Shown piece by piece: positions 8,733-40,291 of a stretch of 64,000 bases of DNA. Under the pieces are notes generated by a model. The model did no database searches. It was not told the DNA's origin and saw nothing but the letters and a program-made list of their open reading frames with translations. The position numbers were made by a program, and so were the translations under genes. This DNA is from Asanoa ferruginea (GTDB lineage Bacteria; Actinomycetota; Actinomycetes; Mycobacteriales; Micromonosporaceae). The DNA is taken from contig NZ_QUMQ01000001.1 in assembly GCF_003387075.1 (NCBI RefSeq), positions 1,426,001-1,490,000 on the forward strand, given 5' to 3'. The first letter of the stretch is position 1, and each line of letters begins with the position of its first letter.

Positions 8733-8825
8733 CGGCGTGGCTACGTCGACACGCCGTAGCGACCCAATCCGCGCGAGATCTGGGTAAATAGATGTAGCTA
8801 TAGCTACATCTATTTACCTAGATCT
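8733..8825 (+). repeat. 93-bp composite palindromic element, copy 1
   Basis: A GC-rich hairpin CGGCGTG-N10-CACGCCG (8733-8756) is followed by a 19-nt spacer ending CCGCGCG (8757-8775). A 50-bp palindrome then spans 8776-8825 with 25-nt arms, one mismatch and the centre GTAGCTATAGCTAC. A second copy lies at 40199-40291 in the opposite orientation, with the same lengths throughout. Confidence 0.9.
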
Positions 8826-8878
8826 GCTGGATCAGCAGGCGCGGCAGCGCCGGGCGCGGATTAGACAACGAAATGTCT

Positions 8879-9025
8879 TGATCGTTTGCGGCGGATCTGC
8901 ACGATTCTGGCCTTGCGGCATGATCATGTGTGTCAGATCGGCACGACGCGCCGCACCAGGTGTCGATGGGCTGCAGACGATCACGCAAACCTGACCTGCC
9001 GGTGCCGGCCAGCCGCAAACGATCA
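8879..9025. repeat. Spaced 14-bp inverted repeat
   Basis: TGATCGTTTGCGGC at 8879-8892 and its exact complement GCCGCAAACGATCA at 9012-9025 enclose 119 bases. An imperfect related motif (GACGATCACGCAAAC) lies inside. It could be a structured non-coding RNA, a mini-element or a decayed transposon remnant; no transposase is present. Confidence 0.5.
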
Positions 9026-9391
9026 CCGACTCGGGCGGCCAGACTCGGCACGCTCACACCTCGGCGCCAACTCGCCGACCCGCCGACTCGCTGCCAAGTC
9101 GGCCGCAGGCCTTCTTGGGCGGTTGACCTTGACTACGCTGTCGACCCTTTCCTCTCTCGTGAATGGCCGGTCGCATGTCGTCTGGCAGCACGCATCGCAC
9201 GCCGGCCGTGGTCGGCGCCGTCCCGACGGTGCTCTTTGCCGCTGGCTAGGCGTCTACTGTGGATGCTCTGCCCACGGCGCCCACGCCCACGCGGCCCACC
9301 CGCCCACGCGACCCATGCCACGCACCGAGGTGACCTGTTGAGGCGTGCGGGAGACCACAGACCTGCTGGTCACCCCTGACCGGGCGCCGCC

Positions 9392-10495
9392 TCAGCTGCG
9401 CGTTCGGGGTTGCCGTCGGGTGAAGGCCGCGCGGATTGGGCCGACGCGGGTGGCCAGGCTGGCCAGGCCGCCCGGGAAGAAATACACCGCAAGGATGAAG
9501 ATGGCGCCCAGTACGAACAGTGGTTGGGAGAGTGGGCCCGGTAGGTCGGTGGCCAGGTTGGTCAGGCGGTTGTCCAGATACATGTACAAGATGCCGCCGA
9601 TGACTGGGCCCCAGCGCGTGCCGGGGCCGCCGAGCACGACCATCACCAGCAGCGACAGGGTCAGCTCCGAGCTGGTCACGTGTGGCGACGCGCCGCCGAC
9701 GACCAGCACGTAGACGATGCCGCCCAAAGCGGCCAGCCCACCCGCGAGGGTGAACGCCACCAGCTTGTAGCGGTAGGGGTCCAGCCCCAGTACGCCCACC
9801 CGGCGCTCGTCGTCGCGCAGGCCCGCGAGCACCCGGCCCGTCGGCGAACCCGCCACCCGGGCCACCACGAAGACGACCACCGCGACGTACGCCAGGGCCA
9901 GCCAGTAGAGGTTGACCGTGTTGGCCACGCCGACCAAGAAGTCGGGCAGGCCCGCGCCGCCGATTGGGAGGCCTTCCTCGCCGCCGGTCAGGCCGCCGAA
10001 GTCGCGGGCCACCAGGATCGCGCCGACCTGGGCGAACGCCAGCGTCACCATCGCGAACGCGATGCCGGCCGTGCGCAGCGCGATCGCGCCGAGCAGAGCG
10101 GCCAGAGTCGTGCTGCCGACCAGGGCGAACACCGCCGCCTGCCACAGCGGCAAGCCGGCGCGGGTGACCAGCACGTCGGTGCCGTAGATGCCGGCCGCGA
10201 AATAGAGCGCGTGCCCGAACGAGAGTAGGCCCGTGCGGCCGAAGAGCAGGTCGTAGCTCGCGGCCAGGCCACCGAAGACCAGGCAGGTGGCCAGCAACTG
10301 GAGGTTGCCGGGCGAGTTGAAGACGCCGTCGAGGATGCCGGGCAGGGGCAGCCTGAAGTAGGGCAGCACGGCGGCCACCACCAGCGCGAGCAGCGGTCCG
10401 AGGCCCAGAAGCCAACGCAACCGCCGAGCAGGCGCGAGTTCCGGCGGCGTCGCCGCGGGCGGCGCCTCGGCGCTCACCGGGACAGCCTGGGTCAT
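9392..10495 (-). CDS. livM: Branched-chain amino acid ABC transporter permease LivM
   Basis: A 367-residue integral membrane protein with about nine to ten hydrophobic helices and a ~30-residue cytoplasmic N-terminus. Family marks include GRTGLLSFGHALYFAAGIY near the second to third helix, and LGLDPYRYKLVAFTLAGGLAALGG in the conserved cytoplasmic loop (cited as LGLDPYRYK and FTLAGGLAAL). It is the last gene of the five-gene importer operon and its ATG overlaps the livH stop by four bases. It forms the transmembrane channel with LivH. The substrate is presumed to be a branched-chain amino acid or related amide; the family also includes urea and short-chain amide importers. Confidence 0.9.
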   Translation of the reverse strand: MTQAVPVSAEAPPAATPPELAPARRLRWLLGLGPLLALVVAAVLPYFRLPLPGILDGVFNSPGNLQLLATCLVFGGLAASYDLLFGRTGLLSFGHALYFAAGIYGTDVLVTRAGLPLWQAAVFALVGSTTLAALLGAIALRTAGIAFAMVTLAFAQVGAILVARDFGGLTGGEEGLPIGGAGLPDFLVGVANTVNLYWLALAYVAVVVFVVARVAGSPTGRVLAGLRDDERRVGVLGLDPYRYKLVAFTLAGGLAALGGIVYVLVVGGASPHVTSSELTLSLLVMVVLGGPGTRWGPVIGGILYMYLDNRLTNLATDLPGPLSQPLFVLGAIFILAVYFFPGGLASLATRVGPIRAAFTRRQPRTRS

Positions 10496-11382
10496 GCCGT
10501 GACCGCCCTTCCGGCGATGCCTTGCGGCCGGACCAGCAGCACGATCGCCAGCAGCGCGACCACGCAGATGTCGCCGAGCCCGGCGGTGCCGTAGTAGTTG
10601 ACGAACTGCTGGAGAAGACCGACCGCGACCGCGGCGTACGCGGAGCCGACCACCGAGCCCATCCCGCCGATCACGACGACGATGAACGCGAAGATCAGCA
10701 GAGAGCCGCCCTGCGCCGGTGAGACGGATCCGAAGTAGACCCCGCCCAGCGCACCGGCCAGCGCCGCCGCCGCGCCGCCGATCGCGAAAACCAGCGTGAA
10801 CGCCTTGCGCACGTCGATGCCCAGCGCGGTCACCATCTCGCGGTTCTCCACGCCCGCCCGGATCACCAGGCCGACCCGGGTGAACCGGAGGAAGAGCAGG
10901 AGCAACGCGAGTACGGCGGCCGCCGCCAACACCAGCAGCAGCGACGCGTTCGGGATGTGCGCGTCGCCGATCGCGGTCACCCGGCGGGTCCACTCAGGGC
11001 GCGGGAACGGCCGCGGGTCGGCGCCCCAGGTTGCCTGGAGCAGCGCCACCCCGGCCAGCGACAGGCCGACCGTGACCAGCACCTGCTCGATCGTCCGGCT
11101 GTAGAGCGGCCGGATCAGCACGAGTTCGACCAGCGCCGCGACGACCGCGCCGCAGACCACGCCGAACGCGGCGGCCAGCACGAAGCCGAAGCCCGTCGGG
11201 CCGGCACCCGGCAGGTGGTCGGCGGCCCACCAGGTCGCGTACGCGCCGACCGACAGGAACAGCCCGTGCGCGAAGTTGAGCACGTCGGCCAGGCCGAAGA
11301 CCAGCGACAGCCCGGAGGCGACCAGGAAGTAGAGCGCGGCCAGGCCGAGCCCGGTCAGCGTCAACAGGATGAACGTCGACAT
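10492..11382 (-). CDS. livH: Branched-chain amino acid ABC transporter permease LivH
   Basis: A 296-residue permease with eight or so membrane helices. Typical LivH segments are LSLVFGLADVLNFAHG near residues 26-41, and the EAA-like loop VENREMVTALGIDVRKAF (cited as ENREMVTALGID). The start codon overlaps the livF stop (TGATG) and its own end overlaps livM by ATGA, so translation is coupled. It pairs with LivM, while LivF and LivG supply ATP hydrolysis. Confidence 0.92.
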   Translation of the reverse strand: MSTFILLTLTGLGLAALYFLVASGLSLVFGLADVLNFAHGLFLSVGAYATWWAADHLPGAGPTGFGFVLAAAFGVVCGAVVAALVELVLIRPLYSRTIEQVLVTVGLSLAGVALLQATWGADPRPFPRPEWTRRVTAIGDAHIPNASLLLVLAAAAVLALLLLFLRFTRVGLVIRAGVENREMVTALGIDVRKAFTLVFAIGGAAAALAGALGGVYFGSVSPAQGGSLLIFAFIVVVIGGMGSVVGSAYAAVAVGLLQQFVNYYGTAGLGDICVVALLAIVLLVRPQGIAGRAVTA

Positions 11383-12110
11383 CAGGCCGGCACCCCCGCC
11401 GAGCCGACGCCGAGCAGCGCACGGGTCAGGTCCGGCTCGCCGAGCAACCGGTCGGCCGCGCCGGTCCAGGCGACGCGACCGGCGGCCAGGACGACCGCGT
11501 CCCGCGCCAACCGGCGTACAACGGCGAGGTTCTGCTCCACCAACAACACCGGCACGTGCTCGGCGACCGCTTCGAGCGCCTCCGCCACCTCCGTCACCAC
11601 CTTCGGGGCCAGACCCTTCGTCGGCTCGTCGACCAGCAGGAGGCGGTTGTCCGCGAGCAGCACCCGACCGATCGCCAGCATCTGCTGCTGCCCGCCGGAG
11701 AGCGTGCCGGCCCGCTGCTTGGCGCGTTTCGACAGCTCGGGAAAAAGCGCATAGACGCGGTCGTACGCCGGTGCCGCGCCCTTGCGTTCGGCCAGCCGCA
11801 GGTTCTCCGCGACGGTGAGCCCGGCGAACACGCAGCGGTCCTCGGGCACGTAGCCGAGCCCGCCGCGGACCAGCCGGTGCGTCGGGGTGTGCAGCGCGTC
11901 GACGGCGCCGATCCGGGCCGAACCGGTGACCTCACCACCGCGTGGTGTCAGGCCGACCAGCGCCCGCAACGTCGTGGTCTTGCCGACGCCGTTGCGGCCG
12001 ACCAGCGCGGTCACCCCCGAAGGCGCGACGGTGAACGAGACACCCTGGAGGATGTGCAGCCCGGCGATGCGGACGCTGAGGTCATCGACGCGCAGGATCG
12101 GCTCGGTCAT
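11382..12110 (-). CDS. livF: ABC transporter ATP-binding protein LivF
   Basis: A 242-residue ATPase with Walker A GRNGVGKTT, signature motif LSGGQQQ, Walker B LLLVDEPTKGLAP and the H-loop region replaced by the LivF-type VLLVEQNLAVV. It is the smaller of two ATPases in the liv operon, overlapping livG upstream and livH downstream. It energises import together with LivG at the inner face of the membrane. Confidence 0.93.
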   Translation of the reverse strand: MTEPILRVDDLSVRIAGLHILQGVSFTVAPSGVTALVGRNGVGKTTTLRALVGLTPRGGEVTGSARIGAVDALHTPTHRLVRGGLGYVPEDRCVFAGLTVAENLRLAERKGAAPAYDRVYALFPELSKRAKQRAGTLSGGQQQMLAIGRVLLADNRLLLVDEPTKGLAPKVVTEVAEALEAVAEHVPVLLVEQNLAVVRRLARDAVVLAAGRVAWTGAADRLLGEPDLTRALLGVGSAGVPA

Positions 12111-12865
12111 AGCCCCTCACCCAGGTAGGCCTCCTGCACGCCCCGGTGTGCCATCACGGCCTCGGGGGTGTCGCAGGCGAGCAGCGCGCCGTGGTGCATC
12201 ACGGCGATGCGGTCGGCCAGCTCCAGGATCACGTCCATGTGGTGCTCCACCATGAGGACCGACCGGCCAGTGGCGTCGGCACCCCGGGTCAGGCCGCGGA
12301 TGACCGCGACCAACTCGGGCACGTCTTCGGCGCTGACACCGGCCATCGGCTCGTCGAGCAGCAGCACGGTCGGCTCGCCGGCGAGCAGCAGGGCGATCTC
12401 CAGCTTGCGCTTCTCGCCGTGCGCCAAGGTGCCGGCCAACACGTCGCCCCGGTGGCCAAGGCCGACGGTCTCCAGCACCCCGTCGGCCGCCGAAGCAACG
12501 TCCTTGAACGACGCGGCCCGCCGCCACAGGGCCATCGAGCCGCCACGGTGGGCCTGGACGGCCAGCCGGACGTTCTCGCGTACCGGAAGCGAACCGAAGA
12601 CCGACGACGACTGGAAGGTCCGCCCGAGACCGCGCCGCGCGCGGCGGTGGGGCGGTAGGGCGGTGACGTCGTCATCGCCCAGCCAGACCGTGCCCGCGGT
12701 CGGCTTACGCAGCCCGCTGACCAGGTTGAACAGCGAGGTCTTGCCGGCGCCGTTGGGCCCGATGACGCCGAGGAACTCGCCGGGGGCGAGGGCGATGTCG
12801 ACACCGTCGACGATCGCTACCTCGCCCACCCGCCAGGTCAGCCCCTGTGTGCGGAGCACGGCCAA
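12107..12865 (-). CDS. livG: ABC transporter ATP-binding protein LivG
   Basis: About 252 residues. Walker A is GPNGAGKTS, the signature region is LAHGEKRKLEIA (LivG-type LSxGxQ variant with His), Walker B is LLLDEPMAGVS and the H-loop is LMVEHHMDVI. There is no ATG near the expected start. TTG at 12865 is chosen because AAGGG sits nine bases upstream; GTG at 12859 is an alternative. Five bases separate it from the binding-protein gene and its stop overlaps livF by ATGA. Confidence 0.9.
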   Translation of the reverse strand: MAVLRTQGLTWRVGEVAIVDGVDIALAPGEFLGVIGPNGAGKTSLFNLVSGLRKPTAGTVWLGDDDVTALPPHRRARRGLGRTFQSSSVFGSLPVRENVRLAVQAHRGGSMALWRRAASFKDVASAADGVLETVGLGHRGDVLAGTLAHGEKRKLEIALLLAGEPTVLLLDEPMAGVSAEDVPELVAVIRGLTRGADATGRSVLMVEHHMDVILELADRIAVMHHGALLACDTPEAVMAHRGVQEAYLGEGL

Positions 12866-12870
12866 CTCGC

Positions 12871-14064
12871 TCAGCCCTTCATCGCGGCCGCCGGTGGGGC
12901 GACCTCCTCGGGGGTGAGCGCCTTCTCGAGCTTGGCCGTGGTGCCGGTGAGGGTGGCCTGATACATCGGCTGGAGCAGGGCGTGGTCCTCGGCCCGGATA
13001 GTCAGCTTGCCCTTGACGCCGTCGAAGCTGTAGCCCTCGAGCGCGCTGACCATCTTGTCGACGTCGTCGCCACCCTCCTGGACCGCACGGACGATCATCT
13101 GTGCCGCCGTGAAGCCATCGGGGTTGAACAGGTCGAGCGTGCCGCCGACCGCGCTGCGGGCCGCCTGCGCGGCCGGGTTGTCGCTGGCGCCGTCGAAGTA
13201 GTGCGACAGGAACGAGATCTTCGCCCCGGCCGCGCCGAAGGTCGGCCAGGAGGCCCGGATGTCGAGGCCGGTGACCACCGTGGTGCTGGCCAGGATGCCC
13301 TGCTGGTCGAGGGTCTGCCACATCGCCGGGGCGGTGGTGCCCGCCCAGGCCACGAACAGCAGGTCCGGCTTCGCCGCCTTGAGCTGGCTGGCGAACGGGG
13401 TGAACTCGGTCGCGCTGGCCGGGGCGAGCACGCTGGTCACGGTCGCGCCGGCACCCCCGATGACCGCCTTGACCGCGGCCTCGTTGCTCTTGCCGAACGC
13501 GCTGTCCTGCCCGAAGACCACGACCTTCTTGCCGGCCGCGTCGCCGATGAACGACTTGGCCGTCATCACGTCCTGGTAGGACTGCCGTCCGGAGCGGAAC
13601 GTGTATTTGTTGACCCCGGTGATCGCGTCGGTCGCGGCCGGGCCGGAGATGAACAGCACCTTGTTCTGCGCGGCCAGGGGCGCGACCTGCAGCGCGACGC
13701 CGGAGGCTGTCGAGCCGGCAATGATCTTCGTGCCCTTGCCGATCAGGTCCTTGACCGCGGCGACCGCCTTGGCCGGATCACCGGCGTCGTCGACCTCGGT
13801 CACCTCGATCGCCCGGTCGCCCACCTTGTTGGTGCCGTTGGTGGCGTACGCGAGCCCGGCCTTGAATCCGTCGATGTATTGCTTGCCGTAGGAGGCCAGC
13901 GCCCCTGTCTGGGAGTGGACGATGCCGACCTTGACCGGGGCCGTGCTGGCGCCGCCACCCCCGGTTGCCGTTTCCTGCGGGCTGCCGCAGCCCGTGGCGG
14001 ATACCGCCACCGCTATCACTGTCGCGGCGGTGACGAACGCCCGCCGCATCGCCTTTACCGTCAT
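12871..14064 (-). CDS. livK: Amino acid ABC transporter substrate-binding lipoprotein
   Basis: A 397-residue exported lipoprotein. The signal peptide ends in a lipobox with Cys26 (VSATGC), followed by a Gly/Thr-rich linker. The mature part has the type I periplasmic binding fold of the Leu/Ile/Val-binding family (KVGIVHSQTGALASYGKQ, cited as VGIVHSQTGALASYG; GPAATDAI; SVLAPASATEF). It is the first and promoter-proximal gene of the operon, so it is likely the most abundant product. Upstream is a 27-bp palindrome. The gene sets the specificity of the importer; the ligand cannot be read from sequence alone. Confidence 0.9.
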   Translation of the reverse strand: MTVKAMRRAFVTAATVIAVAVSATGCGSPQETATGGGGASTAPVKVGIVHSQTGALASYGKQYIDGFKAGLAYATNGTNKVGDRAIEVTEVDDAGDPAKAVAAVKDLIGKGTKIIAGSTASGVALQVAPLAAQNKVLFISGPAATDAITGVNKYTFRSGRQSYQDVMTAKSFIGDAAGKKVVVFGQDSAFGKSNEAAVKAVIGGAGATVTSVLAPASATEFTPFASQLKAAKPDLLFVAWAGTTAPAMWQTLDQQGILASTTVVTGLDIRASWPTFGAAGAKISFLSHYFDGASDNPAAQAARSAVGGTLDLFNPDGFTAAQMIVRAVQEGGDDVDKMVSALEGYSFDGVKGKLTIRAEDHALLQPMYQATLTGTTAKLEKALTPEEVAPPAAAMKG

Positions 14065-14074
14065 GGCGACACAC

Positions 14075-14101
14075 GGTAGGGGTCACAGTGTGACCCCTAC
14101 C
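14075..14101. promoter_or_regulatory. 27-bp palindrome in front of the liv operon
   Basis: Perfect 13-bp arms GGTAGGGGTCACA (14075-14087) and TGTGACCCCTACC (14089-14101) around a single central base. The lack of a loop argues for a protein-binding operator rather than a terminator. It starts 11 bases upstream of the livK start codon, so bound protein would block initiation. Confidence 0.65.
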
Positions 14102-14146
14102 ATGTGGCGTGCGCCTATATATACGCCGATGAGATGTGCGGGACGC

Positions 14147-15262
14147 TTAGCGGTGCGTCGATGCGGGCAGCGCGGCGCGGGCGGCCACGGCAGTGTCCGG
14201 CTGGTCGGCGAACACGCCGTCGAGGCCGAGCGAGAAGAAGAGTTCGTACTCGGACGTGATGTCGCCGCGCGCGTTGGGGTCGGTGCCGATCCGATGGTCG
14301 ACCGCGAGGAACTGGTTCTCCGCCCGGAACGTCCAGGCGTGCACGATCAGCCCGTAGCGGTGCGCGTCGCGGATCACCGCGGTCGGCGCGAGCAGCTTGC
14401 CGGTGGCGTCCCGGGGCACCAGCAGGTTCTTGTTGGCGCCGATGCCGTCGGCGTAGCCCGAGATCCACCGCAGGTTGGCCGGCGAGACCAGGTCCTGGTA
14501 GGTGCGCGGGTCGCCGGCGACGACGAAGTCGTAGGGCCGGCCGGCGGCGTCGATCAACTGGGCCAGCCGCACGTCGGTCATCCGGGCCAGCTTGCGCAGG
14601 TTGGCCGTCTCGAACGACTGGACGATCACCGGCGAGCTCTTCCGGGTCAGGTCGTTGGCACGCAGGACGCGCACCAGCGGCTCCTCCAGCGCGAGCCCGA
14701 TCGACTGGAAGTAGGTCGGGTGCTTGGTCTCCGGGTAGATGCCGATCGTCCGGCCGAGCCGCTTGCTCTCGGCCCGGGCCAGGTCGATGACCTCCTGGAG
14801 GGTCGGGATCGGCAACTGGCCGTCGAAGGCGGTGTTGGCCACCCGCACCTGCGGCAGCCGCTCCTTTGCCCGCAGCGTCTTGAGCTCGGCCAGGGTGAAG
14901 TCTTCGGTGAACCAGCCGGTGACGGCGATCCCGTCGATGGTCTTGGTGGTCTTGCGCGCCGCGAACTCCGGGTGGTCGGCGACGTTGGTGGTGCCCGAGA
15001 TCTCGTTCTCGTGCCGGGCCACCAGCTTGCCGTCCTTGGTGGACACCAGGTCGGGCTCGATGAAGTCGGCGCCCAGCCGGATGGCCAGCCGGTAGGACTC
15101 GAGCGTGTGTTCGGGCCGGTAGCCGCTGGCGCCGCGGTGGCCGATGACCAGCGGCTCGTCGTGGTCCTGGCGCTGGCTGGCCACTGCGGCGGCGGGCGCG
15201 ATGCCGGTCGCCGCGATGCCGGCGCCGGCCAGGGTGAGGGATAGAGCAGTACGTCGTCGCAT
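14147..15262 (-). CDS. Secreted glycerophosphodiester phosphodiesterase
   Basis: A 371-residue GlpQ/UgpQ-family enzyme that hydrolyses glycerophosphodiesters to glycerol-3-phosphate and an alcohol. A Tat-like signal (MRRRTALSLTLAGAG, cleavage about residue 28) marks export. Catalytic and metal motifs are visible: IGHRGASGYRPEHT (HRG near residue 42), FIEPDLV (Glu/Asp), DGKLVARHE and IYPETKHP. Length and motif order match secreted actinobacterial members. It is transcribed alone; the gap to the liv operon holds a palindrome. Confidence 0.9.
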   Translation of the reverse strand: MRRRTALSLTLAGAGIAATGIAPAAAVASQRQDHDEPLVIGHRGASGYRPEHTLESYRLAIRLGADFIEPDLVSTKDGKLVARHENEISGTTNVADHPEFAARKTTKTIDGIAVTGWFTEDFTLAELKTLRAKERLPQVRVANTAFDGQLPIPTLQEVIDLARAESKRLGRTIGIYPETKHPTYFQSIGLALEEPLVRVLRANDLTRKSSPVIVQSFETANLRKLARMTDVRLAQLIDAAGRPYDFVVAGDPRTYQDLVSPANLRWISGYADGIGANKNLLVPRDATGKLLAPTAVIRDAHRYGLIVHAWTFRAENQFLAVDHRIGTDPNARGDITSEYELFFSLGLDGVFADQPDTAVAARAALPASTHR

Positions 15263-15330
15263 GGGCCGCAGTCAATCGATCTCGGGCGACCGGGGCTTGA
15301 CACGGCGGTGAACGTGGTAAGAAATGCCTG

Positions 15331-16665
15331 ATGCGCCGCACCCTGCAACACCCCGCCCGGCTTGTGCCGTTGGCGTTTCTCGGCGCCGTCGTGGTCGGGA
15401 CGCTGCTGATGATGCTGCCCGGGGCCCGCGTCGAGCCGGGCGGCACGCCGTTCGTCACCGCCCTGTTCACGGCCACCTCCGCGGTCTGCGTGACCGGCCT
15501 GTCGGTGGTCGACACGGCGACCTACTGGACCGGCTTCGGCCAGGTGCTGCTGACCGTGCTCACCCAGATCGGCGGTTTCGGCATCATGGCGCTGGCGACG
15601 CTGCTCGCGCTGCTGGTCTCACAGCGGCTGGGGCTGCGCAGCCGGCTGATGGCCCAGGCCGAGGACTCGTCGCTGAAACTCGGCGACGTGCGCTGGGTGT
15701 TGGGGCGGATCGCGCTGACCCAGGCGGCCTTCGAGATCGTCATCGCGGTGATCGTCGGCGGCCGGTTCTGGCTGGGGTACGACTTCCCGCTCGGCAAGGC
15801 CGCCTGGTACGGCGTGTTCCACGCGGTGCAGGCGTTCAACAACGCCGGCTTCGCGCTGTTCAGCAACTCGCTGGTCGGGTTCGTCGACGACGCGTGGATC
15901 TGCGTGCCGCTGACCATCGGGGTGATCGCCGGCGGCATCGGCTACCCGGTGCTGTTCGAGTTGTTCCGCGAGATCGGCAAGCCGTCGAAGTGGTCGACGC
16001 ACACCCGGCTGACCGTCTTCGGCGGCATCGTGCTGCTGGTCTTCGGCTTCCTCACGATCCTCGGCCTGGAGTGGAACAACCCCGGAACGCTCGGCCCGCT
16101 CGGCGTCGGCGAGAAGGTGCTGGCCGCCTTCTTCCAGGACGCGATGACCCGCTCCGGCGGGTTCAACACGGTCGACGTGGGTGCCTTCCACAGCGAGACG
16201 CTCGCGGTGTCGACCGGCTTGATGTTCATCGGCGGCGGCAGCGCCAGCACCGCCGGCGGCATCAAGCTGACCACGTTCTTCCTGCTCGCCTTCGTGATCC
16301 TGGCCGAACTGCGGGGCGAGCCCGACGTGGTGATCGGCAAGCGGCGGATAGCGGAGAGCACCCAGCGCCAGGCGATCACCGTCGCGCTGCTCGGCGTGGG
16401 GCTGGTCGCGGCCGGCACGTTCGGGCTGCTGGAGGCGACCGACGGCGTCGCCTTCGACGCGGCGCTCTTCGAGGTGACCTCGGCGTTCGCCACGGTCGGG
16501 CTGAGCACCGGGATCACCCCGACCCTGCCCAATTCCGGGCAGATCATCCTGGTCGTGCTGATGTTCATCGGCCGGGTGGGCACAATCGCGGTAGGGTCGG
16601 CGATCGCCCTCAACACCCAGCGCCGGCTCTACCGATACGCGGAGGAGCGACCCATCGTTGGCTGA
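15331..16665 (+). CDS. ktrB: K+ uptake membrane subunit (TrkH/KtrB family)
   Basis: A 444-residue potassium channel-like transporter made of repeated membrane-pore-membrane units. Selectivity-filter loops show the family glycines: SAVCVTGLSVVD, NNAGFALF, RSGGFNTVD, SAFATVGLSTG. It forms a complex with the RCK subunit encoded next, whose start lies inside the end of this gene (8-base overlap). The ATG at 15331 has only a weak Shine-Dalgarno sequence (GGTAAG). Confidence 0.93.
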   Translation: MRRTLQHPARLVPLAFLGAVVVGTLLMMLPGARVEPGGTPFVTALFTATSAVCVTGLSVVDTATYWTGFGQVLLTVLTQIGGFGIMALATLLALLVSQRLGLRSRLMAQAEDSSLKLGDVRWVLGRIALTQAAFEIVIAVIVGGRFWLGYDFPLGKAAWYGVFHAVQAFNNAGFALFSNSLVGFVDDAWICVPLTIGVIAGGIGYPVLFELFREIGKPSKWSTHTRLTVFGGIVLLVFGFLTILGLEWNNPGTLGPLGVGEKVLAAFFQDAMTRSGGFNTVDVGAFHSETLAVSTGLMFIGGGSASTAGGIKLTTFFLLAFVILAELRGEPDVVIGKRRIAESTQRQAITVALLGVGLVAAGTFGLLEATDGVAFDAALFEVTSAFATVGLSTGITPTLPNSGQIILVVLMFIGRVGTIAVGSAIALNTQRRLYRYAEERPIVG

Positions 16666-18900: not shown

Positions 18901-18946
18901 GACCCAACTGTTGCCCGCTGCTCCGCGGATCGAACCTAGAAGGTCA

Positions 18947-32224: not shown

Positions 32225-32228
32225 GACT

Positions 32229-32292
32229 TTGCTCTGCACCCTTGTAGGCACCACCCGAGCGTTCGGATGGTGCCTACAGGGGTGCAGAGCAA
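32229..32292. terminator. Bidirectional terminator with 30-bp arms
   Basis: A long hairpin between two convergent genes. The arms start TTGCTCTGCACCC (32229) and end GGGTGCAGAGCAA (32292), 30 nt each with two mismatches and a four-base loop GCGT. There is no strong T tract, but the position between convergent stops supports termination in both directions. Confidence 0.85.
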
Positions 32293-32297
32293 GGAGG

Positions 32298-33704
32298 TCA
32301 GGCGGCCCGGTGGCGGCCGATCAACCTCGGGCGGCCGCGGCGCCGCCGGCGGATCAAGGCCATGCCGACCCCCGCGAGCACGAAGACGAGCAGGACACCG
32401 GCCAGGCGCAGGACGTTCGCGTTGCCGACCAGGCGGTTGTCGTCGGAGCGCAGGGTGACCGCCGCGGGTGCGGCGCTGCCGGTCGCGGCCGGCGTCGTGG
32501 CCGGGTTGCCACCGTCCACGTCGCTGGGCTGGTTGTCGACCTCGGCCGAGGTGGCCGAGCCGGCGCCGCTCACGTTGATGCCGGTCGTCGACGCGGTCGC
32601 CGCGGCGATCGGGTTGCCCGACGGGGTGTCGCCGGTCGGCTCGTTGACGAGGTCGCCGGCATCGCCCATCGCGCCGCCCTGGTCACCCCCGAAGGAGCCG
32701 ACCGAGCCGCCGCCGTCGCTGAACGACCCGCCGCCGTCGGAGAACGATCCGCTGCCGCCGGAGAACGAGCCGTTGCCGCCGAACGACGTACCGGGGTCGC
32801 CGCCGAGCACGGCGCCCGGGTCGGCCGGGATGCCGCCGTTGTCGATGACCCCGCCGTTGTCGACGTATCCGCCGAACTCGCTGCCGGGGACGACACCGCC
32901 GTTGGGGTAGACGCCGCCGTCGCTGAACGCCGTGTCGGGCACGATGCCGGGCACGCCGGCGCCGTCGGAGTAGTAGCCGGTGGTGTCGACCTGGCCGGGG
33001 TCGGTCACGGCCGGCGGCACCACCGGAGCCGGCGCCGGGACAGGGTCCGCGTCGGGCTCGGTCAGGTCGACCGATCCGTGCGGCAGATCAGCGAGCCCGA
33101 GCGTAGGAGTAGCGGTCGGCGTCGGCGTGGGCCGCGCAGTCGGCGTCACGGTCGGCGTCGGAGTGGGAGTAGGCGTCGGGGTCGCCCGCCCCGCCACCGG
33201 ATCGAGCATCGGCGCGACGACGGCCTCGCCGAACACCGCCGGTTCGGTCGGGCTGGCCTGCGGCGACGACTCCGCGGGGCAGGTCTGTGCGATCGCGAGG
33301 TTGCGGACCGTACCCGTGATGGCCGCTGTCGCGGCCGTCAGCCGGCCGCCCTTGTCGACCACCAGCCAGGCCCGGGTGTCCGCGATCCCAGCGCCGTCAC
33401 CCGGCGCCTTCCGCGACACCTCCTGCCCGTCGGGCGTCGTGAAGGTGGCGCTCAGGGCGACGATGTCACCGGTGCGGACGCGGTCGCCGGGCAGTTGGAA
33501 GAGCCACACATCCCGATCCGGGTAGGGGCCACCGCCCAGCCTGGCCTCGCAGGCGTGCTTGCCGACCTCCGCGGCCGTCGCGGGCACGCTGGTCGGCAGC
33601 ACGTCGACGTACATCTCGGCACTGGCCACCGTCGGCACGGCGACACCCAGCCCGCCACCAATTGCCGCCGCGGCCAAGGCCGCACCCAGCGATCGTCCTC
33701 TCAT
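32298..33704 (-). CDS. Surface-anchored low-complexity protein
   Basis: A 468-residue exported protein of no recognised family. It has a signal peptide (about 1-29), a globular N-terminal domain with Cys pairs (about 30-140), a Thr-Pro repeat stalk near 175-200 and a long Gly/Ser/Asp-rich region. That region includes short repeats such as GSFSDGGGSFSDGGG. A C-terminal membrane helix (about 432-450) and a basic tail (RRRRRGRPR) follow. The tail fits a membrane-retained wall protein, although a sortase LPxTG signal is absent. The stalk suggests display through the cell wall. Function is unknown. Confidence 0.78.
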   Translation of the reverse strand: MRGRSLGAALAAAAIGGGLGVAVPTVASAEMYVDVLPTSVPATAAEVGKHACEARLGGGPYPDRDVWLFQLPGDRVRTGDIVALSATFTTPDGQEVSRKAPGDGAGIADTRAWLVVDKGGRLTAATAAITGTVRNLAIAQTCPAESSPQASPTEPAVFGEAVVAPMLDPVAGRATPTPTPTPTPTVTPTARPTPTPTATPTLGLADLPHGSVDLTEPDADPVPAPAPVVPPAVTDPGQVDTTGYYSDGAGVPGIVPDTAFSDGGVYPNGGVVPGSEFGGYVDNGGVIDNGGIPADPGAVLGGDPGTSFGGNGSFSGGSGSFSDGGGSFSDGGGSVGSFGGDQGGAMGDAGDLVNEPTGDTPSGNPIAAATASTTGINVSGAGSATSAEVDNQPSDVDGGNPATTPAATGSAAPAAVTLRSDDNRLVGNANVLRLAGVLLVFVLAGVGMALIRRRRRGRPRLIGRHRAA

Positions 33705-33791
33705 CCCGCTCCCCCGAATCAGACATGAGACGCACCCAGGTGCGATCGTGCCCGATTGGCGGATGAAATGTGGGGAATTGTCTAATTCACC

Positions 33792-34046
33792 TTATTTATG
33801 CCTGAAGTGTACGAAGACCCGGCCGAAGTTCTTCGAGTCCTTCTCCACCCGGTGGTAGAGCTGCTTGACGTCCTTCTGGTCGAGGAAGCGCAGCACCTTC
33901 TTCTTCAGCGCGCCCGAACCCTTGCCGGGGATGATCTCGACGAGGGTGGCCTTCTTGGCCACGGCCTCGTCGATGATCCCGCGGAGCGCCCGATCGATGT
34001 CGTGCCCGCGGTTGTAGATCTCGTGCAGGTCGAGCTTGAGCTTCAC
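33792..34046 (-). CDS. Small Smr-domain protein
   Basis: An 84-residue stand-alone Smr domain with LDLHE near the N-terminus and the loop IIPGKGSGALKKKV. Smr domains bind or cleave nucleic acids, and bacterial MutS2 carries one. The start overlaps the TPR gene stop by ATGA. The length is a minimal Smr fold with nothing added. A nuclease or RNA-binding role is inferred from family only. Confidence 0.85.
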   Translation of the reverse strand: MKLKLDLHEIYNRGHDIDRALRGIIDEAVAKKATLVEIIPGKGSGALKKKVLRFLDQKDVKQLYHRVEKDSKNFGRVFVHFRHK

Positions 34047-34408
34047 CGGGGCTTGACCTTGGATTCGACCCGCTGGAGCGCCTGCGCGTAGTCACGGTGG
34101 TCGGCGTGCATCGCCACCGCGATCCGCAGGTGGGTCAGCGCCTCCGAGTCGCGACCCTGCCGTTCGAGGGTGCGGCCCAGCACGTGGTGCGCGTAGTGGT
34201 CGCTCGGGTCCTTGTCGACGAGCGCCCGCAACTGCTCCTCCGCGCGGCCGAGTTGGGCCGACTGGAAGTAGGCGCGGGCCAGCAACTGGCGGACGGACGC
34301 GTTGTCAGGCTCGACCGCCACGATCGGCTCGAGCAACCGCGCCGCGCCGCTCGGGTCGCCGGCTTCGAAGAACAGGTTCGCCCGGCGGTATTCCTCCAGG
34401 AGATCCAT
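34043..34408 (-). CDS. Small TPR protein
   Basis: A 121-residue helical protein with two to three tetratricopeptide repeats (NASVRQLLARAYFQSAQLG, cited as RQLLARAYFQSAQL; DHYAHHVLGRTLERQG). TPRs mediate protein contacts. It is translationally coupled to the Smr gene, so the two may form a nucleic-acid-linked complex. It lies 18 bases after the ROK kinase gene on the same strand. Confidence 0.82.
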   Translation of the reverse strand: MDLLEEYRRANLFFEAGDPSGAARLLEPIVAVEPDNASVRQLLARAYFQSAQLGRAEEQLRALVDKDPSDHYAHHVLGRTLERQGRDSEALTHLRIAVAMHADHRDYAQALQRVESKVKPR

Positions 34409-34426
34409 TTGCCACCTCCACCTCTC

Positions 34427-35179
34427 TCAGGGCCGCCTCAGCGACCACGCCCGCACACCACCGAGGATGCCGGCGGTGTTCGGCACCACGACCACGTCGT
34501 CACCCATCCGGGTCAGCTGCTCGGGCCGGACCAGCCGGGAGTTGCCCCCGCCGAGGTAGAGCCGGTCCCAGAGGAAGACCGGCCGCAGCCCGTCGACCAC
34601 CGTGCGGACCCGCCTCGACCAGAACGCGTCGCCCAACCGGCGCCGCTCGTGCTCACCGATGTACGTGTCGTAACTCATCCCCCAACGCACGGGTGCCTGG
34701 GAGAATTCCAGGTGCGGTGCGAGCTGCCCGCCGTCGAAGAGCGCGCAGCCCAGGCCGGTGCCGAGCGTGATCACCAGCTCCAGCCCGGCCCCGGCGACCA
34801 CACCCGCACCGTGCACCTCGGCATCGTTGAGCACCAGCACCGGCGTGCCGAACGCCTCGGCCAGCGCCGCCTGCGCGTCGAACCCGCTCCAGTCGGTGAC
34901 CAACTCGGGGTCGACCTTCGTCCGCGGGCCCGACCGGGTCACGTAGTGCGGGGTCGCCACCACCACCCCGTGCCTGATCATGCCCGGCATGCCCACCGTG
35001 ACCCGGTCGGCCGTCGGCAACCGGGCGGCAAGGTCGATGAGGGTCTTCACGAAGAGCGAGGTCGGCAGGGGGTACGGCGTCGGCACCCGCAACGGCCGGG
35101 CCCGCATCGTGCCCGCCTCGTCAAGGACCGAGGCCTTGATCCCACCGCCCCCACAGTCGATGGCCAACGTCGTCACCAC
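34427..35179 (-). CDS. ROK-family sugar kinase (polyphosphate glucokinase-like)
   Basis: A 250-residue kinase with the ATP/phosphate loop IDCGGGGIKAS near residues 7-17, VGMPGMI, LNDAEVHGAG and TLGTGLGCALF. Length and motifs match actinobacterial polyphosphate glucokinases, which phosphorylate glucose with polyP or ATP, but catalytic preference cannot be told. One of two adjacent GTG codons (35179 or 35176) starts translation. It leads a probable operon with the TPR and Smr genes. Confidence 0.82.
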   Translation of the reverse strand: MVTTLAIDCGGGGIKASVLDEAGTMRARPLRVPTPYPLPTSLFVKTLIDLAARLPTADRVTVGMPGMIRHGVVVATPHYVTRSGPRTKVDPELVTDWSGFDAQAALAEAFGTPVLVLNDAEVHGAGVVAGAGLELVITLGTGLGCALFDGGQLAPHLEFSQAPVRWGMSYDTYIGEHERRRLGDAFWSRRVRTVVDGLRPVFLWDRLYLGGGNSRLVRPEQLTRMGDDVVVVPNTAGILGGVRAWSLRRP

Positions 35180-35261
35180 ACGATCAGTCTGCCGTCCCCC
35201 GCCGCGTCACGGGAAACGGAGCGGAAGATCGCCTGGTTCTCCAGATACCATCGGCGACGCT

Positions 35262-36884
35262 ATGACGACGCTGATCGCCAAGGACCTCGCCGCCGGACAC
35301 GGCGACAAGATCCTTTTCGCCGACCTGGAGCTGGTCGTCGCCCCCGGCGACGTGATCGGCCTGGTCGGCCCCAACGGTGCCGGCAAGTCGACCTTGCTCC
35401 GGACGCTCGCCGGGGTCATCCCGGCCGAACAGGGCAGCATCGCGCTCAATCCGCCCACCGCGACCGTCGGCTACCTCCCGCAGGAGCCCGACCGGCGCCC
35501 GGGCGAGACGGTGCGGGCGTTCCTCGGCCGGCGCACCGGTGTCACGGCCGCCCAAGCTGATCTCGACGCGGCGACCGAGGCGCTCACCGAGGGCCGGGTG
35601 GGCGCCGACGAGGCGTACGCCATCGGTCTGGATCGTTGGCTCGCGCTCGGCGGGGCGGATCTTGACGAGCGGCTCGACGACGTCAAGCTCGGCTTCTCGC
35701 CCGACCTGGCGATGACGGCACTCTCCGGCGGTCAGGCGGCTCGGGCCGGGCTGGCGTCGCTGCTGCTCAGCCGCTACGACATCTTCCTGCTCGACGAGCC
35801 GACCAACGACCTCGACCTCGACGGCCTGGCCCGGCTCGAGGAGTTCGTCACCGGCCTGCGCGCCGGCACGGTGCTGGTCAGTCACGACCGCGAGTTCCTG
35901 GCCCGCACGGTGACCCGGGTCCTCGAACTCGACCTGCACCAGCAGCAGATCAACCACTTCGGCGGCGGCTACCAGTCCTATCTCGACGAGCGCGAGGTGG
36001 CCCGCCAGCACGCCCGCGACGACTACGAGGAATACGCGCAGACGCGGTCCAACCTGGAGGCGCGGGCGCGCACTCAGCGCAACTGGATGGAGACCGGCGT
36101 CCGCAACGCCCGCCGCAAGGCGAAGGACAACGACAAGATCGGCCGCAAGTTCCGCGCCGAGGCGACGGAGAAGCAGGCCGCCAAGGCCCGCCAGACCGAG
36201 CGGCTGATCGAGCGCCTGGAGGTGGTCGACGAGCCGCGCAAGGAGTGGGAGCTGCGGATGACCATCGCCGCGGCACCGCGCGCCGGCGCGATCGTGGCCA
36301 CCCTGCGCGCGGCCACCGTGCAGCGGGGCGGCTTCACGCTCGGGCCGGTCGACCTCCAGATCGACTGGGCCGACCGGGTGGCGATCACCGGTCCCAACGG
36401 CTCAGGCAAGTCGACCTTGCTGGCCGCGCTGCTCGGCCGGCTGCCAGTAGACAGTGGTTCAGCGCATCTGGGCCCGGGCGTGGTGGTCGGCGAGGTCGAC
36501 CAAGCGCGCCGCGCGTTCGACGGCGACGAGCCGATCGTCGACGCGTTCCGGGCCGCCGTGCCCGGGATGCCGCCGGAGGAGTCGCGCACGCTGCTGGCCA
36601 AGTTCGGGCTGCGCAGTGATCACGTCGTGCGCCCCGCCACGACCCTGTCGCCGGGCGAACGCACCCGGGCCGGGCTCGCCCTGCTCCAGGCCCGCGGCGT
36701 CAACCTGCTCGTCCTCGACGAGCCGACCAACCACCTCGACCTGCCCGCGATCGAGCAACTCGAGTCGGCGCTGGCCGGCTACCCGGGCACGTTGCTGCTG
36801 GTCACCCACGACCGCCGGATGCTCGACGCGGTCAGCGTCAACCGCCGGCTGGCCGTCTCGGGCGGGCGCGTGTCCGAGCTTTAG
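35262..36884 (+). CDS. ABC-F ATPase (ribosome-associated)
   Basis: A 540-residue protein with two ABC cassettes and no membrane segments. Cassette 1 has GPNGAGKST, LSGGQAARAG and LLDEPTNDLD. Cassette 2 has GPNGSGKST, LSPGERTRAG and LDEPTNHLD. The linker (about 235-320) is highly basic with NARRKAKDNDK, as needed to enter the ribosomal E site. Family roles are translation regulation or antibiotic target protection. ATG at 35262; upstream is the divergent kinase gene. Downstream are ArsR, FMN reductase and an ABC exporter on the same strand. Confidence 0.92.
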   Translation: MTTLIAKDLAAGHGDKILFADLELVVAPGDVIGLVGPNGAGKSTLLRTLAGVIPAEQGSIALNPPTATVGYLPQEPDRRPGETVRAFLGRRTGVTAAQADLDAATEALTEGRVGADEAYAIGLDRWLALGGADLDERLDDVKLGFSPDLAMTALSGGQAARAGLASLLLSRYDIFLLDEPTNDLDLDGLARLEEFVTGLRAGTVLVSHDREFLARTVTRVLELDLHQQQINHFGGGYQSYLDEREVARQHARDDYEEYAQTRSNLEARARTQRNWMETGVRNARRKAKDNDKIGRKFRAEATEKQAAKARQTERLIERLEVVDEPRKEWELRMTIAAAPRAGAIVATLRAATVQRGGFTLGPVDLQIDWADRVAITGPNGSGKSTLLAALLGRLPVDSGSAHLGPGVVVGEVDQARRAFDGDEPIVDAFRAAVPGMPPEESRTLLAKFGLRSDHVVRPATTLSPGERTRAGLALLQARGVNLLVLDEPTNHLDLPAIEQLESALAGYPGTLLLVTHDRRMLDAVSVNRRLAVSGGRVSEL

Positions 36885-36886
36885 GC

Positions 36887-36915
36887 TTGACTTATATAAA
36901 AGGCTGCTAGACAGT
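36887..36915 (+). promoter_or_regulatory. AT-rich promoter/operator before arsR-like gene
   Basis: TTGACT (36887-36892) resembles a -35 box. The near-palindrome CTTATATAAAAG (36891-36902) has the AT-rich form seen in ArsR-family operators. TAGACA at 36908-36913 could be a -10 box close to the GTG at 36922, implying a very short leader. The reading is tentative. Confidence 0.4.
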
Positions 36916-36921
36916 CGAGAC

Positions 36922-37257
36922 GTGCACGCGTTCGACGTCCTCGGCGACCCGGTCCGGCGCCGGATCCTCGAGTTGCTGGCCGACGGCGAGCTCGCGGCCG
37001 GCGAGATCGGCGCCGTGATCCAGGCCGAGTTCGGCATCTCGCAACCGGCCGTGTCGCAACACCTGCGGGTGCTCCGCGACAACGGCTTCACCACCGTCCG
37101 CGCGGCCGGCACCCGGCGGCTCTACGCGGTCGACGCCACCCCGTTGCAAGCGGTCGACGCCTGGTTGGACCGCTACCGCCGGTTCTGGAGCCAGTCGCTC
37201 GACGCGCTGGAGACCGAGCTGGCCCGCGGCCGGCGCGCCCGCCGCGACCCCCGCTAG
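36922..37257 (+). CDS. ArsR/SmtB-family winged-helix repressor
   Basis: A 111-residue DNA-binding protein with FDVLGDPVRRRILELLADGE in helix 1-2 (cited as LGDPVRRRILELL) and recognition helix SQPAVSQHLRVLRDNG. There are no Cys metal sites, so it may sense something other than metal. GTG start at 36922. The stop lies in a perfect palindrome (37252-37270), and the FMN reductase follows by 54 bases. It probably controls itself and the reductase-DrrAB genes. Confidence 0.85.
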   Translation: MHAFDVLGDPVRRRILELLADGELAAGEIGAVIQAEFGISQPAVSQHLRVLRDNGFTTVRAAGTRRLYAVDATPLQAVDAWLDRYRRFWSQSLDALETELARGRRARRDPR

Positions 37258-37270
37258 ATCGGATCTAGCG
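37252..37270. promoter_or_regulatory. 19-bp palindrome before FMN reductase
   Basis: CGCTAGATC-G-GATCTAGCG is a perfect 9-bp inverted repeat that overlaps the arsR-like stop codon and precedes the reductase gene by about 40 bases. An operator for the adjacent regulator is plausible. Confidence 0.55.
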
Positions 37271-37311
37271 AGGCGTCTCGCGCCTTCCCAGTGAGAGGGG
37301 AGGTGGTCACC

Positions 37312-37881
37312 ATGACCGAGACGCCGTTGCGGTTGGCGGTGATCATCGGAAGCACCCGCGAGGGCCGGGTCGGCGACCGGATCGCACACTGGTTCGTCGC
37401 ACAGGCCGGCGGGCGTCCCGACCTCACGGTCGCGATCGTCGACCTCGCCGAGTTCGCGTTCCCGGCCGGCTACCCGGCCCGGCCGACACCGCAGATGTCG
37501 GCGTTCGCCGCCGAGATCGGCCGCGCGGACGCGTTCGTCCTGGTCACCCCCGAGTACAACCACAGCTTCCCGGCCTCGCTCAAGCAGGCGATCGACTTCG
37601 CCTACGACGAGTGGCACGCCAAGCCGGTCGGCTTCGTCTCCTACGGCTGCCGGTCGGCCGGGCAACACGCGGTCGATCAGCTCCGCACGGTCTTCACCGC
37701 CCTGCACGCGGTCACCGTCCGCGACGGGGTCGGCGTCGACCTGCTCGACGGCTGCGCCGACCTCGACTCCCGGCTGGCCGACTATCTCCCGGTGCAGGCC
37801 GCCCAGGTGCTGCTCGACCAGCTCTGCTGGTGGGGCCGCACGCTGCGGGCCGGCCGCGCCGCACACCCCTATGTCTCGTGA
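37312..37881 (+). CDS. NAD(P)H-dependent FMN reductase
   Basis: A 189-residue flavodoxin-like reductase with the FMN loop GSTREGR near residues 14-20 and [16 protein letters not shown] near residue 80. Such enzymes reduce FMN, quinones or azo compounds. ATG at 37312 follows GGGGAGG. Twenty-six bases separate it from the exporter ATPase gene, so drug or redox stress is a likely shared theme. Confidence 0.88.
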
Positions 37882-37907
37882 GTCTTTTGTCAACGGAGGG
37901 AACGATC

Positions 37908-38896
<989 letters not shown>

Positions 38897-38900
<4 letters not shown>

Positions 38901-39739
38901 GCACCGCCACCGATGTCCCGACCGTCTTCGTGCCCTCTCCCGAGACGCTGAGCGCCGTCCTCGCGCCCGGTGCCCGACCGCCAAGGCCGAGCGCCTGGTC
39001 GGCCTCGGTCACCTTCGGCTGGCGCGCGATGCTGAAAATCAAGCACGTCCCGGAACAACTCTTCGACGTGACGGCCTTCCCGATCATCATGACCCTGATG
39101 TTCACCTACCTCTTCGGTGGTGCGATCAAGGGCAGCACCGGCGCCTACCTACAGTTCTTCCTACCCGGCATCATGGTCACCAGCGTCGTAATGATCACCA
39201 TGTACACCGGCGTCGGCCTCAACACCGACATCGAGAAAGGCGTCTTCGACCGCTTCCGTACCCTCCCGGTCTGGCGCCCTTCCGCTCTGGTCGGCATGAT
39301 CTTCGGCGACGTGCTCCGCTACATCCTGGCCGCCCTGGTCATCCTCAGCGTCGGCCTGATCCTGGGCTTCCGCCCCGACGGCGGCCCGATGGGCGTCCTG
39401 GCCGGAATCGGCCTACTGGTCGTCTTCTCGTTCGCGTTCTCCTGGGTCTGGACCATGTTCGGCCTGGTGCTCCGCAGCGAGAAATCGGTGATGGGCGTGA
39501 GCATGCTGGTCCTGTTCCCGCTGACCTTCCTGAGCAACGTCTTCGTCGAACCCATCACGATGCCCGGCTGGCTACAGGCCTTCGTCAAGGTCAACCCGAT
39601 CACCCACCTGGTCGACGCCATCCGCTCAGTGATGGCCGGCACCCCCGACGGCATGAGCATCATGTGGACCCTGCTCTGGAGCGCCGGCTTCGTCGTGGTC
39701 TTCGGCTTCCTCACCATGTACCGCTACAACCGCAGATGA
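38897..39739 (+). CDS. DrrB-type ABC-2 exporter permease
   Basis: A 280-residue permease with about six membrane helices and the ABC-2 family loop near [15 protein letters not shown]. It is the partner of the preceding ATPase, with overlapping genes and joint function in drug or lipid export. A strong terminator hairpin begins 21 bases after the stop. Confidence 0.92.
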
Positions 39740-39760
39740 CCTTAGGTAGGTCCAACGACG

Positions 39761-39789
39761 CGGCCCCCGCGCATTCAGCGCGGGGGCCG
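39761..39789 (+). terminator. Terminator after the DrrAB operon
   Basis: Perfect 12-bp arms CGGCCCCCGCGC and GCGCGGGGGCCG with a 5-base loop ATTCA. The stem is very GC-rich and follows the permease stop codon by 21 bases. No long T tract follows. Confidence 0.85.
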
Positions 39790-39810
39790 TGCCTGCTGCC
39801 TTGCTGGATT

Positions 39811-40121
39811 TCAATTATGAATGGTGGCACATATCGTGCCGAAACCACTGTAGGTGCCGTCGATTTTGCGCCAGAACCTCGTGCAGATCTTTGACTGATC
39901 CGGGAAGCTCCTGTTCAGGGAAATCTTCAGCCACGACGCCTGGGACGACGGTAGAGTCGCACTGGCGTTTTGGAACCATCGATCCGGTGAATCGAAGTGG
40001 AAGCCCGGTCCCCATACCTCCGAGTGTCCGTAGTATTTGTAGAGCGGGGCCAAATTCACATAAGGGGTTAGAAAACGGAAGCCACAACAAGCGCCAGCAA
40101 CATTCCCGCGAGCTTGCGCAT
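39811..40121 (-). pseudogene. Frameshifted small secreted protein
   Basis: The ATG at 40121 has an ideal ribosome binding site (GGAGG, 5-base spacing) and encodes a good signal peptide, MRKLAGMLLALVVASVF. Translation then meets TAA. One frame away, without further stops to 39811, is a ~86-codon stretch. Its third codon positions are strongly G/C, and it reads LTPYVNLAPLYKYYGHSEVW onward to FGTICATIHN. Restoring one T in the TTTT run (near 40072-40075) joins them into a ~102-residue secreted protein with two Cys residues. It may be a real mutation, a sequencing error, or frameshifting. No family is recognised. Confidence 0.55.
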
Positions 40122-40198
40122 TCGTCCTCCAATCGGGTTCGGTCCCTATCGAGGAAGTTAGTCCGCACGCACCAATAGCGGAATGACTGGCAGCACGC

Positions 40199-40291
40199 AG
40201 ATCTAGGAAAAGCGATGTAGCTATAGCTACATTTCTTTTCCTAGATCTCGCGCGGGTTGGCCGTGACCGGCGTGGCGACATCGACACGCCG
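40199..40291 (-). repeat. 93-bp composite palindromic element, copy 2
   Basis: Same plan as 8733-8825 but inverted. A 50-bp palindrome (40199-40248; 25-nt arms, two mismatches, same GTAGCTATAGCTAC centre) is followed by a 19-nt spacer beginning CGCGCGGG (40249-40267). The hairpin CGGCGTG-N10-CACGCCG lies at 40268-40291. Arm, loop and spacer lengths are identical to copy 1, while several palindrome bases differ. Confidence 0.9.

Follow-up and report, generated by a model that had tools for sequence, protein, structure and literature searches.

The closest described counterparts of the element reported here, a 50-bp palindrome found twice (copy 1 and copy 2) in a 64,000-nucleotide stretch of Asanoa ferruginea DNA (hereafter the window; positions 1426001–1490000 of a one-contig genome of 9,071,909 bases, labelled G000), are of several kinds. 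Repetitive extragenic palindromic (REP) sequences form an asymmetric hairpin with a conserved tetranucleotide, GTAG or GGAG, at its 5′ foot. In Streptococcus pneumoniae, BOX elements are modular intergenic repeats with a fixed module order, and bidirectional intrinsic terminators ordinarily have, to our knowledge, no sequence common to different loci. According to the accessible part of PMC1525189, REPs and the mosaics that they form (bacterial interspersed mosaic elements, BIMEs) are short palindromes with many intergenic copies, often between convergent genes, and are targets of specific insertion sequences (IS); the five IS families named there as targeting REPs are IS3, IS110, IS4, IS256, and IS5, and do not include IS30. 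IS1630, an IS30-type element with inverted repeats as its targets, is the subject of a 1999 reference title in PMC3317919, and the accessible part of that article describes diverse target specificity with duplications of 16–26 bp in four copies.

We read the Asanoa palindrome, at a probability of roughly 0.55 and from sequence comparisons, as a bidirectional 3′-end hairpin that is also a dispersed repeat, and the family would thus join two known kinds, the REP-like repeat and the two-way terminator. Tight convergent cases, avoidance of divergent gaps, the zones of the arms, and two-sided co-variation together suggest a hairpin active in the transcripts that arrive from either side, and lineage-specific sequence, a module mosaic, and presence or absence between species suggest that it is copied as a repeat. 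The many intergenic palindromic copies in one genome are as in REPs and BIMEs, but here the element is a symmetric 50-bp palindrome with conserved ends, GATC lying near both in place of a tetranucleotide at one foot, and no Y1 transposase was found in its host genome. Bidirectional intrinsic terminators similarly have a symmetric hairpin, A and T tracts around an inner stem (here clearest in Asanoa copies), and tight placement between two stop codons; the present element differs in its family sequence across genera, its dispersal as repeats, and the pairing of its T tract within a longer stem. BOX elements are alike in organization, as modular intergenic repeats with a fixed order, whereas the palindromic module here also stands alone. 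No paper on this palindrome element was found in searches of an open-access library from which most subscription journals are absent.

Copies, placement, and arm co-variation

The original prediction, made from the two window copies, looked to further copies in the genome and its relatives for support, and these exist in this genome and in the genus, family, order, and class. An exact arm pattern (GATCTAGGNAAA-N20-28-TTTNCCTAGATC) occurs at 27 places in this genome against 0 for a reversed control; in GTDB contigs, a set from which the window's own genome is possibly absent, it occurs twice in A. hainanensis, once in A. ishikariensis, and on one Parabeggiatoa contig (L080), where the match spans 44 bp rather than 48, has other letters inside, and looks like chance. 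Covariance models were built from 36 Asanoa-genus copies (R1) and from 40 copies of many genera (R2; 18 of the 36 Asanoa alignment rows plus 22 of 27 family loci, four being dropped for another length and one as a duplicate). Only the best 15–20 candidates per genome were scored at the family, order, and class levels, and the best 150 in Asanoa, such that copy numbers are lower bounds and zeros are weak, and the E-value thresholds also differ by set (0.01 for Asanoa, 1e-3 for the family, 1e-4 for the order, and 1e-5 for the class). With R1 there are matches at at least 40 distinct places in this 9.07-Mb genome, in 6 of 6 Asanoa genomes, and in at least 66 of 300 genomes and at least 20 of 44 genera of the family. 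With R2, at least 78 of 397 genomes of the order (18 of these outside the family) and at least 22 of 394 of the class (19 outside the family) have matches.

The palindrome is mostly 50 bp, with a minority of shorter or longer matches, and its consensus varies by lineage, GATCTAGG being present in most Asanoa copies and GATCTTGG in most copies of other genera; a species-rich genus (g4) is probably Micromonospora. Class-level matches in other families (L225, L226, L229, L233, and L240) are long palindromes with a GTCGC..GCGAC-like centre and different arms, and are perhaps part of a wider superfamily. Two viral contigs (L046, L047) have 18 matching bases in AT-rich DNA but no arms, and are not family members.

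Genes were called with our own codon-usage caller, trained on loci of this genome and genus and applied to other genera too. None of 40 loci in this genome (one of them, L053, split by an IS) lies inside a called gene, and 23 are in convergent gaps, 16 in tandem gaps, and 1 in a divergent gap, compared with 7, 43, and 31, respectively, among 81 other gaps of at least 100 bp at the same loci (Fisher P 1.5e-8 and 6e-6). Elsewhere, 75 loci were offered, 70 used, and 62 classified, with 6 at edges and two belonging to Asanoa relatives; 25 copies lie in convergent gaps, 32 in tandem gaps, and 5 in divergent gaps, the corresponding numbers for 36 background gaps (70 bp or longer) being 2, 20, and 14. 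In 15 of these 25 convergent copies (12 sites, as three sites are each counted in two species) both stop codons are no more than 45 nt from the palindrome, leaving no room for another terminator. The general position is that of a terminator, after stops in convergent or tandem gaps with divergent exceptions (1/40 and 5/62), although often far from the stop in this genome. The neighbouring genes themselves are diverse: among 78 neighbours (80 minus the IS transposase at L053 and a low-complexity frame at L070) no Pfam family is present in more than 2, and no transposase family is common to them.

That the arms differ between copies and yet stay self-complementary, as was proposed from two copies, holds across the family, and compensatory changes are plentiful in the aligned copies, all counts here being of sequences and not of events. 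In the 36 Asanoa-genus copies 92.7% of cells are paired and 81 changes are two-sided, compared with 83.2% and 32.3, respectively, in shuffles. The 40 cross-genus copies have 200 two-sided changes against 65.3 in shuffles, distributed over 17 of 23 pairs, and 94.0% of cells paired against 73.9%, a percentage that leans upward since the copies were found with a pairing-rewarding model. All five co-variation values of this set are reached by no shuffle or slid version; its 920 cells include 23 one-sided standard changes and 55 unpaired, columns 10–17 and 20–21 vary while staying mostly paired, and several copies are perfect palindromes. Compensated pairs are also seen between species at shared gene neighbourhoods (five in L128/L133, four in L095/L097, three in L128/L141, and one in L100/L101), where close flanking sequence aligns on one side only; the comparisons in which both flanks align (L133/L141, L143/L152, and L144/L149) have none.

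G-U pairs do not exceed A-C mismatches (17 to 11, P 0.34, and 9 to 8), as function on two strands predicts: if both strands must form the hairpin, a G-U pair on one is an A-C mismatch on the other, and changes persist mainly as compensated pairs. A structured RNA of one strand was rejected for this lack of G-U enrichment, and one copy of an accompanying 151-nt repeat (module C, described below; L084) folds no better than shuffles (z −1.29). Selection for structure, the earlier interpretation, is the likely explanation of the co-variation, with self-templated correction of the palindrome as the alternative.

On each strand of the palindrome the inner stem is followed by a T-rich tract (approximately columns 34–41) and then by a conserved base, and the ends are nearly invariant and symmetric. 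Five or more T in the 8 nt after the inner stem are present in 46 of 72 Asanoa strands (related, not independent) compared with 1.5% of 5016 intergenic background windows, and a terminator scan reports two terminator-like sites at copy 2, one per strand, against a mean of 0.8 in shuffles. Transcripts entering from either side would form hairpins that are almost identical, with ~23 bp and a loop of 4 nt, and the arm zones resemble a two-strand intrinsic terminator, with a loop-side inner stem, a T-rich tract that would pair with the A-rich tract of the other arm, and a GATCTWGG/CCWAGATC base. The palindrome may end incoming transcripts or, in a milder form of the termination idea, cap and protect their 3′ ends against exonucleases, most clearly where it is the sole element between convergent genes. 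In Asanoa it presumably multiplied with two side modules (B and C) to give a BIME- or BOX-like mosaic in gene-free gaps, and a clade of IS30-family elements appears to land at its centre.

The window copies and the module mosaic

We refer to the palindrome as module A, to a small hairpin beside it as module B, and to the 151-nt repeat on the other side as module C. The parts of the two window copies and the genes next to them are as follows.

8776..8825, no strand: module A of copy 1, 50-bp palindrome with halves AGATCTGGGTAAATAGATGTAGCTA and TAGCTACATCTATTTACCTAGATCT
8757..8775, minus strand: A-B spacer of copy 1, 19 nt, with CGCGCG at its end
8733..8756, minus strand: module B of copy 1, hairpin CGGCGTG-N10-CACGCCG; the order C-A-B reads on the minus strand
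8877..9027, minus strand: module C of copy 1, a repeat of 151 nt that contains four GATCRTNTG-type sites (two in each direction)
40199..40248, no strand: module A of copy 2, 50-bp palindrome with halves AGATCTAGGAAAAGCGATGTAGCTA and TAGCTACATTTCTTTTCCTAGATCT
40249..40267, plus strand: A-B spacer of copy 2, 19 nt
40268..40291, plus strand: module B of copy 2, hairpin CGGCGTG-N10-CACGCCG; A-B reads on the plus strand
7077..7913, minus strand: gene next to copy 1, as called; its open frame reaches 8543 and matches DUF5715, with copy 1 upstream of the gene
9392..10420, minus strand: gene next to copy 1, as called; its open frame reaches 10993 and matches BPD_transp_2, with copy 1 downstream of the stop
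38897..39739, plus strand: gene next to copy 2, ABC2 membrane protein, converging on copy 2
40419..43883, minus strand: gene next to copy 2, AAA_16 ATPase, converging on copy 2

The hairpin, spacer, and palindrome thus recur in the same order and in opposite orientations, as originally described (read in that order, copy 2 is on the minus strand), with 7-bp arms, a 10-nt loop, and a 19-nt spacer in both copies and the CGCGCG spacer end read in copy 1. No called gene overlaps either copy; the copy 1 gap has a minus-strand gene on either side and the copy 2 gap is between convergent genes. Both palindromes are near-perfect as DNA, with one mismatched pair in copy 1 and two in copy 2, and both 50-mers fold as a single hairpin (z −10.1 and −8.8) that 0 of 200 shuffles equal. 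They share the centre GTAGCTATAGCTAC, which at up to 3 mismatches is confined in the window to these two copies (expected 0.26; two reached in 2 of 100 shuffles). Rfam gives 0 matches at the gathering threshold within the window, and 9 sub-threshold matches in 8600–9150. Module C is absent beside copy 2 among the matches listed.

The proposed 93-bp unit corresponds to the A-B part and is real in both copies, but the constant unit of the family is the palindrome, to which B is optional, and C was missed. The wider idea of a structured intergenic family is likewise supported; it did not include the optional nature of the hairpin, module C, the gene-end placement, or the IS30 link. The module order C (151 nt)-A-B is fixed. 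Orientation was scored at 37 of the 40 loci (3 dropped for low symmetry), of which 22 are orientable by B or C, and A separates the B motif from the C motif in all 14 cases where both are seen. In 25 of 37 copies the B start motif CGGCG[TC]G lies no more than 25 nt from A, with preferred spacings of 18–21 nt (16 occurrences) and 8–10 nt (10) and ~1.5 per 10 nt farther out; the complete 7-bp-arm hairpin is near 8 of 34 copies by a strict pattern. Module C has 24 long matches (~151 nt) in this genome, 15 with A on the same side (one split by an IS) and 9 without A among the matches listed, and its sites are ~42 bp apart in each arm (by eye).

Six Asanoa genomes were compared at shared gaps, and 4 of 8 queried gaps were followed, three of them chosen since a palindrome was already listed nearby. 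The trpD-ctaF gap has one copy in G000, G001, and G003 and three in G002, and no palindrome was found there in G004 or G005; the aroE-aroC gap has copies in G000 and G001, with a different aroC neighbour in G004; an aminotransferase gap has one copy in G000 and two in G001; and an aldehyde dehydrogenase gap has a copy in G000 only. Copies therefore come and go, though some gaps are occupied in several species. At trpD-ctaF the ctaF stop is followed by a separate G+C hairpin that has a T-rich tail, and any palindrome in the gap is beyond this hairpin (by eye). The three G002 palindromes of this gap (L177:1249-1576) are ~140 bp apart. Between the ctaF terminator and the palindrome, several Asanoa species (L071, L075, L176, L177, and L178) have a repeat of approximately GACCGTCGCTCCCGCCGGGGACCGCTCCGCT..GCCAGGTCCGCG, also seen beside copy L077, and in two Asanoa genomes where no trpD-ctaF palindrome was found (L178, L179) the gap holds another short palindrome, GTTAGGAACGG.CCGTTCCT, near the trpD stop.

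IS30-family insertions at palindrome centres

At L053 a half copy is split by an element whose transposase matches HTH_38 (PF13936) and rve (PF00665) above the cut-off and whose terminal inverted repeats end in TTGCAACACC, which identify it as an IS30-family member. Three copies in this genome encode the same protein and one a protein 90% alike, and there is one additional weak partial match; all four copies (L121–L124) are at a palindrome centre, with a 3-bp duplication (by eye). Relatives in G164 (76% identical) and G111 (76–78%) have four listed copies each, again at palindrome centres (L242–L249), which brings the central insertions of this clade to 12 of 12 copies examined over three genomes. 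The four G164 copies have arms that are alike and flanks beyond the palindrome that differ (by eye), whereas in G111 the flanking sequences outside the palindrome are similar among the four copies, which may reflect one target repeat or duplicated sites rather than four independent choices. G181 has one IS copy in an apparently decayed palindrome, and the single copy in G014 is an exception, lying outside any such palindrome. IS1630, as far as the accessible text describes it (PMC3317919), differs from this element, which has the 3-bp duplication and a target that is one sequence family. More distant IS30 relatives (L209, L211, and L213; genus g34) are flanked by other inverted repeats, e.g. 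GTGAGGCTGAGATACCTT, as if other palindrome families were also IS30 targets, and AGGAAGGGCCCCTT repeats, similar to the short palindrome near the trpD stop in L178 and L179, are near IS30 relatives in L203 and L204.

Alternative explanations and implications

Several observations, besides the upward lean of the cross-genus pairing, weigh against a hairpin that terminates or protects transcripts. Among order-level copies the T tract weakens (11 of 50 strands), in several class-level copies it is seemingly absent (by eye), the terminator scan reports no site at copy 1, and a terminator would need no conserved GATCTWGG. Gaps in this genome are wider and the nearest stop is often hundreds of nucleotides from the copy; elsewhere, the gap is divergent for 5 of 62 copies, and a gene call overlaps 2 of 70. 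The palindrome is not the main terminator at trpD-ctaF, as it lies beyond the ctaF hairpin, and over the four gaps followed the number of relatives (out of 5) that have the element is 0, 1, 1, and 3. Of the five co-variation measures, two are not above shuffles in the Asanoa-only alignment (reached by 395 and 134 of 500). Two pairs are broken in one species in L133/L141, where both flanks align, L143/L152 carries two one-sided changes, and one-sided changes are present in every same-site pair except L144/L149, which differs only in the loop. Nearly 90% of Mycobacterium tuberculosis terminator structures have an absent or mixed U trail in the accessible part of PMC8355165, and a reference cited there states in its title that the mycobacterial polymerase requires a U-tract; hairpin-only termination is thus disputed between these sources.

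Each of the alternatives accounts for part of the data. A selfish or neutral REP/BIME-like repeat, copied by a trans-acting enzyme and remaining at gene ends only as other insertions are purged, would have no host role; it would explain a consensus that differs by lineage (mostly GATCTAGG in Asanoa and GATCTTGG elsewhere), the C and B modules at many loci in one order with 14 of 14 orientations agreeing, the presence or absence between species, the three palindromes in one G002 gap, and the absence of a neighbour family common to more than 2 of 78. We regard it as somewhat unlikely given the snug fit between convergent stops in other genera and the compensated changes at shared neighbourhoods. 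A miniature inverted-repeat transposable element (MITE) would have a flanking target duplication and an autonomous partner with the same ends; no duplication is seen by eye beside the palindromes, and no transposase family recurs among the neighbours. No copying enzyme was found: the Y1 REP-associated tyrosine transposase (RAYT) family PF01797 has 0 matches in this genome, with a positive E. coli control search, ruling out a RAYT origin here, and among the six Asanoa genomes one has a single partial match, which contains a stop. Recognition at the DNA level, by a dimeric or multimeric protein on two GATCTWGG ends at a fixed distance or as an extruded cruciform, e.g. in chromosome organization with C and B in the same complex, fits the mostly constant 50 bp with near-invariant ends, the two A-B spacings about one helical turn apart, the ~42-bp distance of the C sites in both arms, the lack of RNA strand bias, and the central position of the IS30 elements. 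Conserved bases would be needed at a protein site, however, and columns 10–17 and 20–21 vary while mostly paired; with no partner protein identified either, this explanation appears unlikely.

Replication template switching, a mechanism known in general to correct long palindromes, could correct one arm from the other and produce symmetry without selection, consistent with arms that co-vary at most variable columns and with the several perfect copies. Yet in most Asanoa copies the symmetry extends for only about 25 bp per arm, gene-end placement needs a separate cause, and same-site pairs contain uncorrected changes, and we consider a purely mutational origin improbable. It is far less probable still that the palindromes are IS30 products, either scars or carried arms, as could be suspected from the 12 of 12 central insertions and from the G164 arms being alike in all four: of six Asanoa genomes, one has the IS and all six have the palindromes, and in this genome three IS copies with identical transposases are inside palindromes with different arms, which speaks against a scar, since those arms pre-date the insertions.

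The bidirectional 3′-end hairpin can be extended, more tentatively, to a family of ready-made two-way terminators: a mobile 50-bp palindrome with a fixed base and loop code that may spread into convergent actinobacterial gaps, end the transcripts of both genes, be kept by compensation, and serve its own IS30 lineage as a safe landing pad. If this is true, the conserved base and side modules would imply a protein that recognizes the hairpin and copies or uses it. Terminators could then act as mobile, sequence-defined repeats, and actinobacteria would have their own REP-like system without a RAYT enzyme. The family would also provide defined sites for measuring two-way termination and mRNA end protection, and a natural extragenic landing site for IS30 elements.

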